In this document: positions 266 through 42,203 of the stretch, in pieces
Layout of the letters: every line of letters begins with the position of its first letter
How positions within the stretch are numbered: the first letter of the stretch is position 1
Assembly: GCF_014083945.1 (NCBI RefSeq)
Contig: NZ_CP046444.1
Location: 1,054,001-1,118,000 of the forward strand
Source: Granulicella sp. 5B5
Lineage (GTDB): Bacteria; Acidobacteriota; Terriglobia; Terriglobales; Acidobacteriaceae
Direction: 5' to 3'
Length of the DNA: 64,000 nucleotides
Program-made: the position numbers and the translations under genes
Notes under the pieces: model-generated
What the model was told of the DNA's origin: nothing
The model's input: the letters and a program-made list of their open reading frames with translations, nothing else
Databases searched by the model: none

Positions 266-1918
266 TCAGCGCCCGCTCACCTTCGCAAAGTCGATGAATG
301 CGCGCGCCGGATTGGTGTGGATCAGCTTCACGTTCACCTTGTCGCCGACATCCAGCCCCTGCTCGTTCTGCACCACGCGCCCTTCGAACGGCGGCCGGAT
401 CACGCGCACATACACGCCCTTGTCGCTCGCGCCCGTAACCACACCCGGAAACACCTGGCCCACGCGGTCAGCCATGGCTACAGCCGCCACGCGCTTCTGC
501 ATATCGCGCTCGATCTTCCGCAGCGCCTTGTCTGCATCGTTGCAATGCTGCGCAATCGCGCCAAGTTCTTCATCGCTGTACGGAGCAGGCTCATTCCGCG
601 TCATCGCGTGCAGCACACGCTGCGTTACCAGGTCGGGAAATCGCCGGTTCGGTGCGGTCGAGTGCGTGTAGTCTCGTGCCGCCAGTCCGAAGTGTCCAGT
701 CGGATCGTCATCCGGCCGCATCAGCATGTACTGCCCTGGCCCCATCAGCTTGATTACCGCAACCGCCAGGTCCGGATAGTGAATTGAGTCCGTCCGCCGT
801 TGCTCTTCCAGAAAGTTGTTCAAAGCCACCGAGTCCGGATTCACCGGCAGCTCCGTGCCATGCTCATGCGCCAGTGCCACAATGCGGTCCCAGCGCCGCG
901 GCACCACCACCACGCGCTGCAATCCGCTGCGCCCACCTTTGCGCAGAGTCCGCGCCATCACTCCGTTGGCAGCCACCATCAGGTCTTCGATCAGGTTCAT
1001 CGCACGGTTCTGCGTAGCTTCACCGATGTCGATCACACGGCCGTCGACCACCACTGGGTCAGCCTCGGCCTTATGAAACTCCAGCGCACCGCGCTTCACC
1101 CGCGCCGCATGCAGAAGCTGCACCGCCTCGTCCTGCAGCTTCAACTGCTCTGCCAGCCAGTTTGCCGGCAGGCCATCGCCACCTCCCAGGCTCGCATCCG
1201 CATCATGCTCCCGCGCGCTGTCACTCCGCAACGACATCACATCGTCATCAACTACACCCGCGGCCGTCTTCTCCAGCCACGGTCCCACACGCGAGTACGC
1301 CAGCTGCGCGCGGTTCCGCACCATCGCCAGCGAAACGCCCTCTTCCACAATCTCCCCTTCGGCGCCTACAACGAACGTCATCATCACCGCCAGCCGGTCG
1401 GCTGCCTCGTTCAGGCTCGTCAACCCGGTTGAGAGTTCCAGCGGCAGCATCGGAAAGTTCTTTACCGCCGTATAGATCGTCTGCGTCTGCACCTCGGCGT
1501 GTTTGTCGATCGGGCTGTCCTGCTCCACCGCGGCGGCTACATCGCCAATCGCGACCCTCAGGCGAATTCCGCCCGGCACACGGTCAGCCACCTCAATCTG
1601 GTCCAAGTCTCTCGACGTATCATTGTCGATCGACGACCACCCCAGCGGTCTCAGGTCCTCTACACCTGACGGCACCGCCAGCGACGCATAGCGCTGCTCG
1701 ATCGCCGCCATCTGCTCGGCGACACCGTCGCCAAACTCAGGCTTGAACCCTGCGGTATGCATCTCATCCAGCGCCGCCTGCGCCAGGTCAAACGGAACAT
1801 GATGCGTCCCATCCGGGTGCCAGCTGCCAAACGGTGGGTGTCCACCCTCACCATGTTGTTCGTTCGTCTGATGTTGCCGATTGTGTTTCCCGTGGTCGTC
1901 ATGCTTCCTGAAAGACAT
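266..1918 (-). CDS. RNB-domain exoribonuclease (RNase II/R family)
   Basis: Predicted 3'-5' hydrolytic exoribonuclease acting on single-stranded RNA in the cytoplasm. The catalytic RNB domain is visible from about residue 85, with the acidic metal-binding run DNDTSRDLDQ at residues 98-107, and the C-terminus (about 470-550) looks like an S1 RNA-binding domain (GVYVRVIRPP, then a GDKVNVKLI strand). At 550 residues it is shorter than RNase R and lacks clear N-terminal cold-shock domains. Instead the first 43 residues are strikingly rich in histidine and low in complexity, which could bind metal or simply be a disordered tail. The ATG at 1918 follows a short G-rich stretch (GCGGGGC), a weak ribosome site. 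It diverges from the Crp/Fnr gene, sharing a 95-bp promoter region. Family call is sure; RNase II versus RNase R subtype is not. Confidence 0.9.
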   Translation of the reverse strand: MSFRKHDDHGKHNRQHQTNEQHGEGGHPPFGSWHPDGTHHVPFDLAQAALDEMHTAGFKPEFGDGVAEQMAAIEQRYASLAVPSGVEDLRPLGWSSIDNDTSRDLDQIEVADRVPGGIRLRVAIGDVAAAVEQDSPIDKHAEVQTQTIYTAVKNFPMLPLELSTGLTSLNEAADRLAVMMTFVVGAEGEIVEEGVSLAMVRNRAQLAYSRVGPWLEKTAAGVVDDDVMSLRSDSAREHDADASLGGGDGLPANWLAEQLKLQDEAVQLLHAARVKRGALEFHKAEADPVVVDGRVIDIGEATQNRAMNLIEDLMVAANGVMARTLRKGGRSGLQRVVVVPRRWDRIVALAHEHGTELPVNPDSVALNNFLEEQRRTDSIHYPDLAVAVIKLMGPGQYMLMRPDDDPTGHFGLAARDYTHSTAPNRRFPDLVTQRVLHAMTRNEPAPYSDEELGAIAQHCNDADKALRKIERDMQKRVAAVAMADRVGQVFPGVVTGASDKGVYVRVIRPPFEGRVVQNEQGLDVGDKVNVKLIHTNPARAFIDFAKVSGR

Positions 1919-2013: not shown

Positions 2014-2712
2014 ATGCCGGCATCGCATAGCTGTATCACATGCGCCATCCGTGGACCGCAGTGTTTCTGCACACTGCCGGCTCTGGACCTCCTTGATCTC
2101 GACACCATCGGTGCGCCGCACGACATCGCAGCCAATCAGACCGTCCTCCGCGAAGGTTACTCCGCCGATCGCGTCTACATCATCTGCAAGGGACGTATCA
2201 AGATCTCCGCGGCCTCTGAAGGCGGCCGCCTGCTTCTCGTCCGCATCGCCGGCCCCGGCGACGTCCTTGGCCTCGCTTCGATCCTGCGCACCACGAACCA
2301 CAAGGTCACGGCGGAGACCATCGAACCCTGCCAGCTCAAATCCATCCCTCGCGCTGCCTTCATCGACTTCATGCGTGGCTCACCCGACGTCAGCCAGAAC
2401 ACCGCCCTCGCCGTCGCCCGCGAGTACGAGGCTGCGCTCCTCAGCGCCCGCCGCCTCGCACTCTCCACCTCCGCAGCCGGCAAGCTCGCCAGCGCTCTGC
2501 TCGACTGGGCCCGCATGAACCACATCCACAATAACGAAGCCCTCGAGTTCGCCATGCCCCTCACCCACGAAGAGTTGGCCTGCATGGCTGGCCTCTCGCG
2601 CGAGACCGTCACCCGCCTCCTCGCCCGCTTCCGCGTCGAGGGCCTCGTTGACCAGCAGGGTGAGCGCATGACCCTCCACGAACCCGCCAAGCTGCAGTCG
2701 CTCTACTGCTGA
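2014..2712 (+). CDS. Crp/Fnr-family transcriptional regulator with possible Fe-S ligands
   Basis: Cyclic-nucleotide-binding-fold regulator of 232 residues with a C-terminal winged helix. The helix-turn-helix is at about 183-206, and the recognition helix reads RETVTR at 196-201, keeping the Arg, Glu and Arg that CRP uses on TGTGA half-sites. The N-terminus carries cysteines 7, 10, 17 and 19. A further Cys106 lies in ETIEPC, which aligns position for position with ETSMVC holding Cys122, the fourth [4Fe-4S] ligand of E. coli FNR. An oxygen- or NO-sensing cluster is therefore plausible but inferred. Start chosen at the ATG after AAAGGAG and CGAGG. The gene converges on ctaD one base after its own stop, and a CRP/FNR-like palindrome lies in front of the ctaD unit, so control of the oxidase is an attractive hypothesis. 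Confidence 0.9.
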   Translation: MPASHSCITCAIRGPQCFCTLPALDLLDLDTIGAPHDIAANQTVLREGYSADRVYIICKGRIKISAASEGGRLLLVRIAGPGDVLGLASILRTTNHKVTAETIEPCQLKSIPRAAFIDFMRGSPDVSQNTALAVAREYEAALLSARRLALSTSAAGKLASALLDWARMNHIHNNEALEFAMPLTHEELACMAGLSRETVTRLLARFRVEGLVDQQGERMTLHEPAKLQSLYC

Positions 2713-2713
2713 C

Positions 2714-4405
2714 TCACGCCGCAGTGGCCTCGATAGGCTTGCCCTCCACATCGTCCGTTCGGTGGTCGATCCACTCATAGTCGTAGGCCTCATGCGTCAC
2801 CAGCGGCACGCGGTCGAAGTTATACGTCGGCGGAGGGCTCGGCACGGTCCACTCCAGCCCATACGCCTTCCACGGGTTCCGCGCCGCAATCGGCCCGTAC
2901 TTCAGGCTCCATAGCAGATACATCATCGACAGCAGATATCCCAGCCCCATCACCGTCGCACCGGCGGTCGACATCACATTCAGCATCTGCCACTCCGGCG
3001 GATACATCGCATACCGCCGTGGCATGCCCATATATCCCAGGATGAACTGTGGTCCGAAGGTAAAGAAGAACCCCACAAAGATCAGCAGTGCGGCCAGCTT
3101 CGCAGGCTGCTCCGGATACATCCTGCCGAAGATCTTCGGCCACCAGAAGTGCAGCCCGCCCAGGAACGCCATGATCACCGCGCCCACCATCACAAAGTGA
3201 AAATGCGCGACCACAAAGTAAGTCTCGGTCAGTTGCACATCCATGCCCGTCGCGCCCAGGAACACGCCCGTGCAGCCGCCAATCACAAACAGCCCTATGA
3301 AGCCCAGCGCATACACCATCGGCGCATCGAACCGGATCGACCCTTTGTACAGCGTCGCCACCCAGTTGAACACCTTGATCGCCGAAGGCACCGCCACCAT
3401 CATCGTCAGCAAGCTGAACACCAGCGCCGAGTACTGGCTCACTCCCATGATGAACATGTGGTGTTCCCACACAAAGAACCCGAACACTGCAATCGCAACC
3501 GAGCTGAACGCAATCGCCGTGTATCCGAAGATCCGCTTCCGGCTGAAGCACGCGATCAGCTCACTCATCACCCCCATCGCCGGCAGCAGCATCACATACA
3601 CCGCCGGGTGTGAGTAGAACCAGAACAGATGCTGAAACAGCAGCGGGTCGCCCCCCAGCCTGGGATCGAAGATGCCCACGCCCAGCAGCCGCTCAATCGC
3701 CACCAGCACAATCGCAATCGACACTACCGGCGTGCCCAGGATCATGATGATCGCCGTCGCATAGTTTGCCCAGACAAACAGCGGCAGCCGAAACCACGTC
3801 AGTCCCGGCGCGCGCATCCGGTGCGTCGTCACGATGAAGTTCAACCCCGTGAAGATCGAGCTGAACCCGGCAAAGAACGCCGCCAGCCCGCCCGAGATCA
3901 CGTTCGTATTCACAAACCGCGTGCTCAGCGGTGTCGTAAACGTCCACCCCGTATCGAGGCCGCCGGCCACCACCGTATACAGCAGCAGCGCCGCGCCGAT
4001 CATGTAGCAGTACCAGCTCAAAAGGTTGATCTTCGGAAACGCCAAGTCTCTCGCCCCCAGCATCAGCGGCAGAAGGAAGTTCCCCAGCACCGCGGGGATC
4101 GCCGGGATCAGCACAAAGAACACCATCACCACACCATGCATGGTGAACACCTTGTTGTAGGTGTCCATCGCCATCAGATCGCTGCCCGGCGTCAGCAGCT
4201 CCAGCCTCAGCAGCATCGCCAGCAGCCCACCCACCAGGAAGAAGAACGTCACGCCAATCAGGTACAACAGCGCGATCCGTTTATGGTCCTGCGTCAGCAG
4301 CCAGCTCTTCAGGCTATGGTCGACATTCAGATAGTTGTAGCTCTTCGTCGCCTGTTCCTGCTTCGGCGTGGCAGCCCCTTCCAGCGGCGCGGTCAAGGTG
4401 CTCAT
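2714..4405 (-). CDS. ctaD: Cytochrome c oxidase subunit I (A2-type heme-copper oxidase)
   Basis: Catalytic subunit of an aa3-type terminal oxidase in the inner membrane, reducing O2 to water and pumping protons. Twelve-helix heme-copper fold; visible ligands are His90 (FTMHG), His266 and Tyr270 in YSHPAVY, His315-His316, and His401/His403 in [12 protein letters not shown] replaces the GHPEVY of A1-type enzymes, so the glutamate at the end of the D-channel is absent and the Tyr-Ser pair marks the A2 type. Start taken at the ATG at 4405, preceded by an AGGTGG ribosome site; an upstream in-frame start would add 33 unlikely residues. The ATG overlaps the stop of a possible small upstream ORF (ATGA). 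Subunits II-IV are not in this window. 563 residues, normal length. Confidence 0.96.
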
Positions 4406-4605
4406 CGACCACCTGCCTTCAGCGCCAACGAAGCTGCCGCCACACAATGCGTCATCGCAGCTTGCGACACCGCCAGCACCGCCAACACAATCAGTGGCGG
4501 ACACTCACTCCGCGTCGCATATCCCGTGCAAGTGCCCTTGCACTTGCACGCTTCCCGTGAACTCCCCGCCGCGCAAACACTCTCTTTCGTCGAGACCTCT
4601 GGCAT
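4402..4605 (-). CDS. Possible small membrane protein translationally coupled to ctaD
   Basis: A 67-residue ORF directly upstream of ctaD. Support: a full GGAGGT ribosome site eight bases before the ATG at 4605, an ATGA stop/start overlap with ctaD, and a hydrophobic stretch at about residues 36-60 ([18 protein letters not shown]) that could span the membrane. The N-terminal half is cysteine-rich (CKCKGTC). Against it: no family is recognised, and the CKCKGTCTG codons lie inside a perfect DNA hairpin at 4526-4549, so the ORF may be leader sequence with regulatory structure. If real, it would be a small oxidase-associated protein or a leader whose translation sets ctaD expression. Confidence 0.4.
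4526..4549. repeat. Perfect 10-bp inverted repeat upstream of ctaD
   Basis: Arms GTGCAAGTGC and GCACTTGCAC with a CCTT loop. It lies in the ctaD leader, inside the small upstream ORF. No T-run follows on either strand, so it is not a classical terminator; an mRNA structure or protein site is possible. Confidence 0.6.
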
Positions 4606-4652
4606 GGACACCGACCTCCATCGCCATCCTCACGTCTCGTCCCGCTTGCGTC

Positions 4653-4668
4653 GGTGATTGCAATCACA
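4653..4668. promoter_or_regulatory. CRP/FNR-type palindromic operator
   Basis: GGTGA, six-base spacer TTGCAA, TCACA: nine of ten bases match the CRP consensus TGTGA-N6-TCACA, and eight of ten match the FNR form TTGAT-N4-ATCAA. It is centred about 55 bases upstream of the small ORF before ctaD. The recognition helix of the regulator at 2014-2712 suits a TGTGA-like half-site. Binding is inferred. Confidence 0.55.
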
Positions 4669-4896: not shown

Positions 4897-4915
4897 TAGC
4901 ATAATTAACGTCATG
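4897..4915 (+). promoter_or_regulatory. Possible -10 element and leaderless start of sucA
   Basis: CATAAT at 4900-4905 lies eight bases before the sucA ATG at 4913, and no Shine-Dalgarno sequence is present between them. This spacing would put transcription start at or beside the ATG. No convincing -35 hexamer is seen, so the promoter call is tentative. Confidence 0.3.
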
Positions 4916-7462
4916 GCGCCCACCACCACCGCTGCAAAACCCAAGTCGCAACCGGCCTCCACCACCAAACCTGCTCCTGCCCGCGAAACCTCCGGCTCTT
5001 CGCGAGAGGCCCTTAGCTCTTCGCGAGAAGCTACCTTCGACATCTTCCGTCGCTGGGGCTACCTCCAGGCCTCGCTCGATCCCCTCGGCCAGTTCCTCCC
5101 GCCCGAGCCCTTCCCCACCGCGCCGCCGGACGGTCCCGACGCCGCCGAAGCCCGCAGCTACTACTGCTCCACCATCGGCGCCGAGTTTATGCACATCCCC
5201 TCGCCCGAGATCCGCGCCTGGATTCAGCAGCGCCTCGAGGCCCCCGCGCCCACCGCCGACCTCCTCACCGCCAACCGCGTCCTCAATGGCCTCATCCGCG
5301 CCGACGTCTTCGAGCAGGTCATCCAGCAGCGCTACCTCGGCACCAAGCGCTTCTCCCTTGAAGGACTCACCGTCCTCATTCCCTTCCTCGACCAGCTTCT
5401 CTCCACCTCCGCCGACCTCGGTGTCACGCACTGCCTCTTCGCTATGGCGCATCGTGGACGCCTCAACGTCATGGTCAACACCGTCGGCCGCAGCTCCTTC
5501 GAGGTCTTCGCAAAGTTTGAGGATGTCGACCCGCGCTCCACCATGGGCGGCGGCGACGTCAAGTACCACATGGGCGCCACCGGCACCTTCACCACGCCGA
5601 ACGGCAAATCCGTAGAGCTACACCTCGCCTCGAACCCCTCGCATCTCGAAGCCGTGAATCCCGTCATCATGGGCCGCACCCGCGCCTACCAGACGCGCCT
5701 CGGCGAAGTCGGCATCCAGCAGACGCTCCCCGTCATCCTCCACGGCGACGCCGCCTTCGCCGGCCAGGGCATCACCGCCGAAAGCCTCAACCTCGCCACG
5801 CTCGAAGGCTACAACCTCGGCGGCACCATCCAGGTCATCACCAACAACCTGCTCGGCTTTACCGCGCTGCCGTCGGAGTCCAACAGCTCGCGCTTCGCCT
5901 CCGACCTCGCCAAGCGCCTGCCCATCCCCATCTTCCACGTCAACGCCGAAGACCCGCTCGCCGTCACACGCATCGCCGCTCTGGCCGCGGAGTTCCGCGC
6001 CACCTTCCACTCCGACGTCGTCATCGACCTCATCGGCTACCGCCGCCACGGCCACTCCGAGGTCGACGACCCCACTGTCACCCAGCCGCGCCGCTACGCC
6101 GCCATCAAGAACCACCCCACGCTCTCCAAGCTCTACGCCGACTCCATCGGCATCGACCCCACCGCTGAGATCGAAGCCGTCCAGAACCGCTTCCTCGCCG
6201 ACCAGAAGGACGCCACCCAGGCCGATCATCGTCCGCACATGCACTCGCTGCCTGCCTTCTGGTCGCCCTTCTACGGCGGCCATCTGCGCGCCGACGACAA
6301 CCCGCACACCGGCATCGACGCCGCCGAAGCCGCAGCGCTCTCCACCGCGCTCACCACCGCGCCCGCCGGCTTCCACATTCATCCCAAGGTTGAAAAGCTC
6401 CTCGCCCAGCGCGTCGAGATGGGCAGCGGCCACAAGCCTCTCGACTACGGCATGGCCGAGCTCCTCGCCTACGCCTCGCTGCTCAAGGCCGGCGTGCCCG
6501 TCCGTCTCACCGGGCAGGACTCCCAGCGCGGCACCTTCAACCAGCGCCACTCCGTCTTCATCGACATCGAGACCGAGGTCCGCTACTCGCCGCTCAACAA
6601 CATCGCGCCTGACCAGGCACGCTGGGAGGTCTACAACTCCATGCTCTCCGAGGCCGCCTGCCTCGGCTACGAGTACGGCTTCTCCCGTGACTACCCCGAA
6701 GCCCTCACGCTCTGGGAAGCCCAGTTCGGCGACTTCGCCAACGGCGCGCAGATCATCATCGACCAGTTCATCTCCGCCGCCGAGGCCAAGTGGAACCTGC
6801 TCTCCGGCGTCGTCATGCTCCTGCCGCACGGTTACGAAGGCCAGGGCCCCGAGCACTCCAGCGCGCGCATGGAGCGCTACCTCCAGCTCGCCGCGCAGGA
6901 CAACATCCAGATCGCCCAGCCCTCCACGGCCGCGCAGTACTTCCATCTGCTCCGCCGCCAGGCGCTGCGCAAGTGGCGCAAGCCGCTCGTCGTCTTCACC
7001 CCCAAGTCGATGCTCCGCCACCCCGACGCGCTTTCGCCCGTCGCCGACCTCGCCCGCGACTCGTTCCTCAACATCATCCCCGACAACGACACAAAGAACG
7101 CGCGCCGCGTCCTCGTCTGCACCGGCAAGATCGGCCACAACCTCCGTGTCGAACGCAACAAGCGCGGTCTCACCGACGTCGCCATCGTCTTCGTCGACCA
7201 GCTCTACCCCTGGCCCGAAGCCGAGCTCCGCGCGGCACTCGACCAGCACACCACAGCCACCGAGATCGTCTGGGTGCAGGAAGAACCGGCCAACATGGGC
7301 GCACACTCTTACGTCATGCCGTTGCTCAAGCGCGTCACGGGAGACCGCCCATTACTCAGCGTCAAACGCACCGCCTCCGCCAGCCCCGCCACCGGCTCCG
7401 CCAAGGCTCACGAGATGGAAGAAAAAACCCTCATCGACCTGGCCCTGGGCCACAGCGCTTAA
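4913..7462 (+). CDS. sucA: 2-oxoglutarate dehydrogenase E1 component
   Basis: Thiamine-diphosphate E1 of the 2-oxoglutarate dehydrogenase complex, decarboxylating 2-oxoglutarate and passing succinyl to the E2 lipoyl domain in the TCA cycle. The typical E1o order is present: FAMAHRGRLNVM and the VKYHMGATG substrate/ThDP region near residue 215-245, the GDAAFAGQG magnesium/ThDP motif near 280, and the transketolase-like half (GQDSQRGTF, then the GYEGQGPEHSSAR loop). The first 45 residues are a Thr/Pro/Ser/Lys-rich extension. Start set at ATG 4913; an in-frame start at 4829 would add 28 residues of untypical sequence. No E2 or E3 gene is adjacent. A strong terminator follows, so it appears monocistronic. 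Confidence 0.95.
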   Translation: MAPTTTAAKPKSQPASTTKPAPARETSGSSREALSSSREATFDIFRRWGYLQASLDPLGQFLPPEPFPTAPPDGPDAAEARSYYCSTIGAEFMHIPSPEIRAWIQQRLEAPAPTADLLTANRVLNGLIRADVFEQVIQQRYLGTKRFSLEGLTVLIPFLDQLLSTSADLGVTHCLFAMAHRGRLNVMVNTVGRSSFEVFAKFEDVDPRSTMGGGDVKYHMGATGTFTTPNGKSVELHLASNPSHLEAVNPVIMGRTRAYQTRLGEVGIQQTLPVILHGDAAFAGQGITAESLNLATLEGYNLGGTIQVITNNLLGFTALPSESNSSRFASDLAKRLPIPIFHVNAEDPLAVTRIAALAAEFRATFHSDVVIDLIGYRRHGHSEVDDPTVTQPRRYAAIKNHPTLSKLYADSIGIDPTAEIEAVQNRFLADQKDATQADHRPHMHSLPAFWSPFYGGHLRADDNPHTGIDAAEAAALSTALTTAPAGFHIHPKVEKLLAQRVEMGSGHKPLDYGMAELLAYASLLKAGVPVRLTGQDSQRGTFNQRHSVFIDIETEVRYSPLNNIAPDQARWEVYNSMLSEAACLGYEYGFSRDYPEALTLWEAQFGDFANGAQIIIDQFISAAEAKWNLLSGVVMLLPHGYEGQGPEHSSARMERYLQLAAQDNIQIAQPSTAAQYFHLLRRQALRKWRKPLVVFTPKSMLRHPDALSPVADLARDSFLNIIPDNDTKNARRVLVCTGKIGHNLRVERNKRGLTDVAIVFVDQLYPWPEAELRAALDQHTTATEIVWVQEEPANMGAHSYVMPLLKRVTGDRPLLSVKRTASASPATGSAKAHEMEEKTLIDLALGHSA

Positions 7463-41547: not shown

Positions 41548-42203
41548 AAAGCGCCGAAGGCGCGTCCTATACCAGCCTGGGGCGTAGCCCCAGGTACGCC
41601 CGCCATAACGGACAGAGGGCTGAAAGCCCGATCTATCCCAGCCTCAGTCCCAAAGGTAACGCTCGTCGAATTCCATCCTGTATTTCCCAAGGAACGCACG
41701 AAACTCATCCTGAAACGTCTGCTTCTTGTGGTGCGACTCCTGCGTATCAATGTAATGAATCAACGCATTCAAATCGGACGGGCCAACAGAGAACGCGCCG
41801 TACCCGCGTTGCCACGCAAACTTCGTCAGCTTCGGAGACTGGCTCTTCAACCACTTAGACGAGGACGCTTTGAGTTCCGCAACCAAATCCGAAACATTCG
41901 CGGTGCGGGACAGGCGAATGGCGAGATGAACATGATCGCCAACACCTCCAACCCGAAAACATTCGCATTGGTTATTCCGAATAACAGTCGCAAGGTACGC
42001 ATAAAGATCGGGCCGTACATCCACATCAAGAACGGGGACGCGGTCCTTCGTACTGAAGATCACATGGACGAGCAGGAACGCAAGCGATTGAGCCATTGCG
42101 GAGAGTATAGATCGGACTTTCAGCCCTCTCGTATGCGCTTGACCTCTTTCCTAGGGCTGGGGCTCCGTCTCAGGCTGGTATCGAACGCGCTTCCAGCGCT
42201 TTT
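41548..42203. mobile_element. REP-associated transposase element with long inverted arms
   Basis: About 656 bp: the transposase gene sits between left arm (41548-41638) and right arm (42105-42203), which are inverted repeats of each other. Inner parts match at 22 of 24 positions (GAGGGCTGAAAG(C/T)CCGATCTAT, 41615-41638 with 42105-42128). Outer parts share GCGC...GGCGCGT, ATACCAGCCTG and AGCCCCAG. Each arm folds into small hairpins such as CTGGGGC-GTA-GCCCCAG. It separates ilvB from ilvN. Confidence 0.7.
41644..42096 (-). CDS. IS200/IS605-type HUH transposase (REP-associated tyrosine transposase-like)
   Basis: Y1 transposase of 150 residues. The HUH metal site is GDHVHLAI with His55 and His57, and the likely catalytic tyrosine is Tyr115 in the IHYIDTQESHH helix. 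FAWQRGYGAFSVGPSD and the C-terminal YRMEFDERYLWD are typical of the small transposases found across Acidobacteria. No accessory TnpB is present. Inverted repeat arms lie five to ten bases outside both ends of the gene, the layout of REP-associated (domesticated) transposases rather than of an ordinary insertion sequence. It may have spread the dispersed repeats of this genome; this is inference. Confidence 0.88.
   Translation of the reverse strand: MAQSLAFLLVHVIFSTKDRVPVLDVDVRPDLYAYLATVIRNNQCECFRVGGVGDHVHLAIRLSRTANVSDLVAELKASSSKWLKSQSPKLTKFAWQRGYGAFSVGPSDLNALIHYIDTQESHHKKQTFQDEFRAFLGKYRMEFDERYLWD

Follow-up and report, generated by a model that had tools for sequence, protein, structure and literature searches.

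The window, by which we mean the whole 64-kb stretch of DNA that was analysed (G000:C1:1054001-1118000 of a complete 3.93-Mb chromosome), holds a gene for subunit I of cytochrome c oxidase, ctaD, situated between a regulator of the Crp/Fnr family and a CRP-type palindrome. The features of the locus are the following:

266-1918, minus strand: RNase II/R-type exonuclease, divergent neighbour of the regulator (gene model, domain match)
2014-2712, plus strand: Crp/Fnr-family regulator, convergent with ctaD, with a RETVTR helix and Cys7, Cys10, Cys17, Cys19, Cys58 and Cys106
2714-4405, minus strand: ctaD, lone cytochrome c oxidase subunit I of the A2 type (COX1 domain, A2-type motif)
4402-4605, minus strand: small Cys-rich open reading frame of 67 aa, its stop and the start of ctaD overlapping in ATGA; C-x-G-Y-x5-C-P-x3-V in 19 of 19 loci
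4615-4619, minus strand: Shine-Dalgarno-like GGAGG of the small reading frame (from sequence)
4619, minus strand: predicted transcription start, placed 7 nt past the -10, from which the operator centre would lie at -41.5
4626-4631, minus strand: putative -10 hexamer GAGGAT (xAxxxT), 22 bp after the operator; spacing found in 13 of 13 promoters
4653-4668, no strand: CRP-type operator GGTGATTGCAATCACA, kept at all 13 lone-ctaD loci
4913-7462, plus strand: sucA-type 2-oxoglutarate dehydrogenase E1, divergent, beyond the operator (gene model, domain match)

The product of ctaD scores 478.7 bits for COX1 and 657.4 bits with the CtaD_CoxA model, slightly below its cut-off of 670.75. The motif YSHPxVY, which we take to be a marker of subunit I of A2-type caa3 oxidases, is present in all 13 lone and all 41 main ctaD sequences. 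The main ctaD of the same chromosome is found at 1857676 and is 70% identical to the one in the window. Since the COX2 genes of this genome lie elsewhere (1859775, 200950 and 3802593) and none adjoins it, the ctaD of the window is a lone gene. An earlier note on this DNA had spoken of a ctaD unit: ctaD does lie downstream of the operator, but it comes without COX2, and a small reading frame sits in between.

Close relatives of this gene were sought in 28 genomes of the genus and 200 genomes of a larger family, and they occur in 5 of the former and in 8 genomes outside the genus. In a tree, all 41 main-ctaD rows fall on one side of a branch with 100/100 support. One of the matches, at G001:C2:892234-893892, was read through one TAG.

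The regulator runs towards ctaD and, as had been claimed, ends one base from it (2712 on the plus strand, 2714 on the minus strand). It is adjacent and convergent at 10 of the 13 loci, while it lies 1.2 kb off in G217 and about 11 kb off in G061; in G204 a perfect site precedes the ctaD operon, yet this genome has only a 39% homologue of the regulator, located elsewhere. Membership in the Crp/Fnr superfamily is clear from PF00027 (62.9 bits) and PF13545 (62.8 bits), both over the cut-off, and from PDB folds of the family that match with Z scores up to 26.3 (rmsd 2.3, 224 aligned residues). The AlphaFold model has a mean pLDDT of 78.5, with 56-61 for the first 20 residues. The protein stays below the NCBIfam cut-off for Fnr (54.3 bits vs 228).

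Conservation of the palindrome across genomes

The element described earlier as GGTGA-N6-TCACA, matching nine of ten CRP consensus bases upstream of ctaD, is indeed found at 4653-4668. It agrees with TGTGA-N6-TCACA in 9 of 10 bases, contains a perfect palindromic core of 14 bp, and lies 248 bp from the start codon of ctaD and 47 bp from that of the small reading frame. How much weight can such a match carry? The 64-kb window contains one operator-like match with at most one mismatch, compared with a mean of 1.03 in 100 shuffles, 66 of which had at least one, so that the window by itself cannot establish an operator.

A comparison of loci that were selected by ctaD similarity, independent of the site, gives a different picture. 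TGTGA-N6-TCACA is found 202-334 bp upstream of the lone ctaD at all 13 loci, from 13 genomes; 11 of the sites are perfect and two, in the window and in G022, have one mismatch. G005 carries a second site at -450 of its lone ctaD. None of the 41 main-ctaD loci, which are the best-scoring among the matches, carries a site within one mismatch of the pattern in its upstream region; at one of them, L063, that region spans only some 210 bp. The distant ctaD homologues L066 and L067 were left out of this comparison. Conservation of the palindrome upstream of ctaD in close relatives was one of the two tests on which the earlier note had let its proposal stand or fall, and the outcome of 13/13 against 0/41 makes the palindrome convincing beyond the window alone. 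One chance match per window is to be expected, but in view of these counts it is barely conceivable that the palindrome is accidental. An FNR-type reading of the site as TTGAT-N4-ATCAA was also considered and dropped: the window site departs from it at two bases, and at the other four loci of the genus the site shows no match of this kind.

The same pattern is enriched in whole genomes. The chromosome of the window contains 67 sites that deviate by no more than one base, vs 20 for the reversed control pattern, and perfect TGTGAYNNNNRTCACA sites number 137 in the 28 genus genomes vs 5 for the control. Perfect sites average 5.7 in the 24 genus genomes that have a homologue of the regulator (E < 1e-30), and the four genomes without one contain 0, 1, 0 and 0 (Mann-Whitney p = 0.0013). 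Being numerous with the regulator and near nil without it, the motif goes with the regulator family. G006 has a single perfect site, the one at the lone-ctaD promoter, and two of the three in G005 are at this promoter as well. In another Acidobacteriota MAG, a perfect site lies just past the end of a regulator homologue (L006:1375-1390). In the chromosome of the window, perfect sites cluster at 3599218-3625340 (L070, L071) and 3298886-3299730 (L072) of G000:C1, near genes for a NiFe hydrogenase, cytochrome b, a universal stress protein, a nitroreductase and a multihaem cytochrome; genes near sites were chosen by a simple codon-position score, and ten of them were compared with Pfam. These clustered sites probably form the low-oxygen regulon of a paralogous regulator.

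Promoter geometry and the small reading frame

Downstream of the site, facing ctaD, an xAxxxT hexamer starts at +22 in eight promoters and at +23 in five, thus in 13 of 13, and any other offset from +6 to +45 shows it in at most three. In none of 20,000 leader shuffles did the best pair of adjacent offsets exceed 8, though the shuffles overstate independence since the 13 promoters are related by descent. A scan of the leaders by identical columns gave no clear -10; the hexamer scan gave one. With a hexamer at +22/+23 the site would lie at -41.5 or -42.5 of the predicted start, the position of a class II activator. Judged by these predicted starts, the promoter corresponds to the class II type activated by Crp/Fnr proteins, with an operator near -41.5 and a -10 present. 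The same spacing towards a gene is seen at several, though not all, of the perfect sites elsewhere in G000.

The site could be thought to serve the divergent sucA and not ctaD. It lies in the region between these two genes in the window and in G005, sucA (identified by eye in the relatives) is still the divergent neighbour in six genomes that lack this ctaD, and at L090 the sucA side likewise shows an xAxxxT at +23. However, the -10 at +22/+23 faces away from sucA in the window, at both sites of G005 and in those six genomes, and L086-L088 have the site without an adjoining sucA. Reading the sucA side of the window site by eye, we found no hexamer at class II spacing. A role in sucA expression instead of ctaD expression is therefore very unlikely.

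What lies directly behind the promoter is a small reading frame of 50-90 aa, found between site and ctaD at 13 of 13 loci. Its signature C-x-G-Y-x5-C-P-x3-V is invariant in all 19 loci that carry the frame. The window copy matches no Pfam or NCBIfam family, and the copy in G202 resembles DUF2284, a predicted metal-binding family, at E = 0.017, which falls short of the cut-off. This weak likeness is centred on the C-x-G-Y...C-P motif, and the small frame differs from DUF2284 in being merely 50-90 aa long and in the lack of a match for the window copy.

Six genus genomes that have no ctaD beside the regulator (G009, G012-G016) retain the same site, with a -10 at +23, directed towards a homologue of the small reading frame. 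The frame thus follows the site both with and without ctaD, and the small protein is the part of the target common to both arrangements. Perhaps it is a metal-handling assembly or control factor. Behind the small frame, these six genomes have a conserved element of about 140 nt, which has a consensus fold of -69.6 kcal/mol and six base pairs changed on both sides. The element occurs in 9 of the 28 genus genomes (G007-G009, G012-G017), is absent from G000 and gave no match in Rfam. Its loci are L089, L090, L019-L022 and L163-L172, and it follows the small frame where ctaD is missing. It is possibly a regulatory RNA under the same promoter. At G008:C5:11683-12075, a regulator homologue with two stop codons, a decaying copy, adjoins an element of this RNA-like kind. 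The window itself contains an Acido-Lenti-1 RNA at 41550-41594 on the minus strand (45.8 bits, cut-off 37).

DNA recognition and cysteines of the regulator

The recognition helix RETVTR, which had been pointed out before, is located at residues 196-201. It keeps the CRP residues R180, E181 and R185 (RE-x3-R), as do all 12 neighbouring regulators, and has R, E, T and R where the FNR-type helix has V208, E209, S212 and R213. The regulator homologue L017 (G012) has Gln in place of Glu181 and has lost Cys19; a perfect site is still found beside it. With nine of ten CRP consensus bases in the operator, RETVTR in the protein, and cAMP-bound GlxR and mycobacterial CRP among the closest folds, one might suspect catabolite control of the cAMP-CRP type. 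Yet of the cAMP contacts of CRP (E72, R82, S83, T127 and S128) the window protein keeps 0 of 5, each being either substituted or absent, and the NCBIfam CRP score is 56 bits vs a cut-off of 266, which renders such control highly improbable.

All 12 neighbouring regulators and all 12 paralogues have Cys7, Cys10, Cys19 and Cys58 without exception; Cys17 is present in 10 and Cys106 in 9 of the 12 neighbours. Cys7 and Cys10 align with FNR C20 and C23, columns that hold Cys in all 12. The remainder of the FNR ligand set (C20, C23, C29, C122) is not reproduced: the C29 column lacks Cys, which is found one and three columns later, and the C122 column has Lys. Cys106 was considered as an equivalent of C122 and rejected, as it aligns three columns ahead of C122, at a position where a Cys is found in CRP as well. 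Elsewhere in the Acidobacteriota, L005-L009 have the same four cysteines, and L010 is without the N-terminal cysteines and Cys58 together. Taken at the level of sequence, the set C-x2-C-x8-C plus C58 is FNR-like and not FNR-identical. The regulator probably works like FNR, a proposal founded on Cys7, Cys10, Cys19 and Cys58, which would hold an oxygen-labile [4Fe-4S] cluster.

Crp/Fnr proteins with other sensors exist, and the circuit could be real without being a low-oxygen activator: the regulator might repress the operon in air or respond to NO, haem or redox state. The Lys in the C122 column and the three of 12 neighbours without Cys106 would be in line with this, as would G009 and G012, which lack this ctaD and have lost Cys19 yet keep the regulator, the site and the small frame. 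The fixed -41.5 geometry, which is typical of activators, and the invariant CxxC at the position of FNR C20/C23 argue against it. So does the published upregulation of a single ctaD of Terriglobus roseus at low oxygen (PMC8407424). On balance we regard a different signal or a repressor as unlikely.

Is the neighbour the protein that acts at the site? A paralogue at G000:C1:3299005, 41% identical, shares the RE-x3-R helix and is itself preceded by a perfect site, 119 bp ahead of its gene; other perfect sites lie close to the genes for the NiFe hydrogenase, the universal stress protein, the nitroreductase and the multihaem cytochrome. The site in G000 might be used mainly by this paralogue as part of its wider hydrogenase and stress-protein regulon, leaving the neighbour redundant or modulating, and the retention of operon and site in G204, with only the 39% homologue, would suit such a role. 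But G001, G005, G006 and G022, in which the search found no such paralogue, keep the site, and the neighbour stays beside ctaD at 10 of 13 loci. Control chiefly by the paralogue thus appears rather unlikely.

These same four genomes, out of the five genus genomes with a lone ctaD, contain no close homologue other than the neighbouring regulator; each has one to three perfect sites, and in three of the four, one or two of these are at the lone-ctaD promoter. Having a single close homologue and few perfect sites fits the self-contained oxygen or redox circuit that the earlier note had suggested, which is borne out as far as the linkage and the site at 13 of 13 loci are concerned. The cysteines suggest oxygen or redox as the signal, as do expression results published for another strain. 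None of 12 promoters of the regulator itself contains the site, so any feedback would not act through this motif.

A candidate low-oxygen circuit

We propose, with a probability of about 70%, that the palindrome serves a two-gene operon, consisting of the small reading frame and ctaD, as its class II activator site, to which the FNR-like neighbouring regulator would bind at low oxygen. The site, its spacing, the operon and its linkage to the regulator are established by sequence comparison. Points that count against the proposal are the Lys in the C122 column, the distant homologue of G204 and the identical helix of the paralogue in G000. The regulator would be an FNR-like sensor with CRP-type DNA specificity, in which Cys7, Cys10, Cys19 and Cys58 would hold an oxygen-labile iron-sulphur cluster. 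A fall in oxygen would make it dimerise, and the dimer, placed at -41.5 in lieu of a -35 element, would recruit RNA polymerase. The small protein and the alternative A2-type caa3 subunit I would be raised together, and the latter would presumably join the caa3 oxidase made from the main cluster.

Several known systems resemble parts of this arrangement. Escherichia coli FNR and FnrL-type sensors share the Crp/Fnr fold, the CxxC at the C20/C23 columns and the presumed control of respiration from -41.5. Unlike FNR, the window regulator has a CRP-type and not a TTGAT-type site, Arg at V208, a third Cys three columns later, and Lys in the C122 column with an invariant Cys58 instead. Bacillus Fnr, HcpR and mycobacterial Crp use sites similar to TGTGA-N6-TCACA for respiratory genes, the mycobacterial target being cydAB; they have other sensor parts and targets, whereas here the regulator is linked to a lone ctaD. 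Orphan isoforms of catalytic subunits, such as ctaDI/ctaDII of Paracoccus and ccoN4 of Pseudomonas, likewise come without subunits II and III of their own, but the present gene is accompanied by a small Cys-rich protein and by a linked regulator dedicated to it.

A further parallel lies within the Acidobacteriaceae, for which additional single ctaD genes outside superoperons have been described (PMC8407424); the lone gene of the window may be of the same kind. In T. roseus KBS 63 a single ctaD is upregulated at low (nanomolar) oxygen, and still after a shift to anoxia (Trojan et al. 2021). The main text of that article contains neither 'fnr' nor 'regulator' (0 occurrences), and names no regulator or operator. 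A literature search whose coverage includes few subscription papers returned no paper on this regulator, operator or small reading frame.

More tentatively, and with less than even odds, these regulators of the Acidobacteriota might represent a distinct class of oxygen sensor, in which a [4Fe-4S] cluster on C-x2-C-x8-C and the beta-roll Cys58, replacing FNR C122, would be combined with CRP-type recognition. Its linked member would run a one-promoter circuit with a new small metal-binding protein as the conserved core target, which some lineages would combine with an alternative oxidase subunit and others with a conserved structured RNA. Two parts may be new, namely the small Cys-rich protein and the regulator's set of cysteines.

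The oxidases with which soil acidobacteria respire oxygen at nanomolar levels are classed as low-affinity (PMC8407424). The locus in the window is probably a switch for respiration at very low oxygen. For a lone ctaD of the kind that is upregulated at nanomolar oxygen, it provides a testable regulator, operator and promoter, extends the operon by a conserved, unannotated small protein, and points to an oxygen-sensing cysteine arrangement unlike that of FNR.
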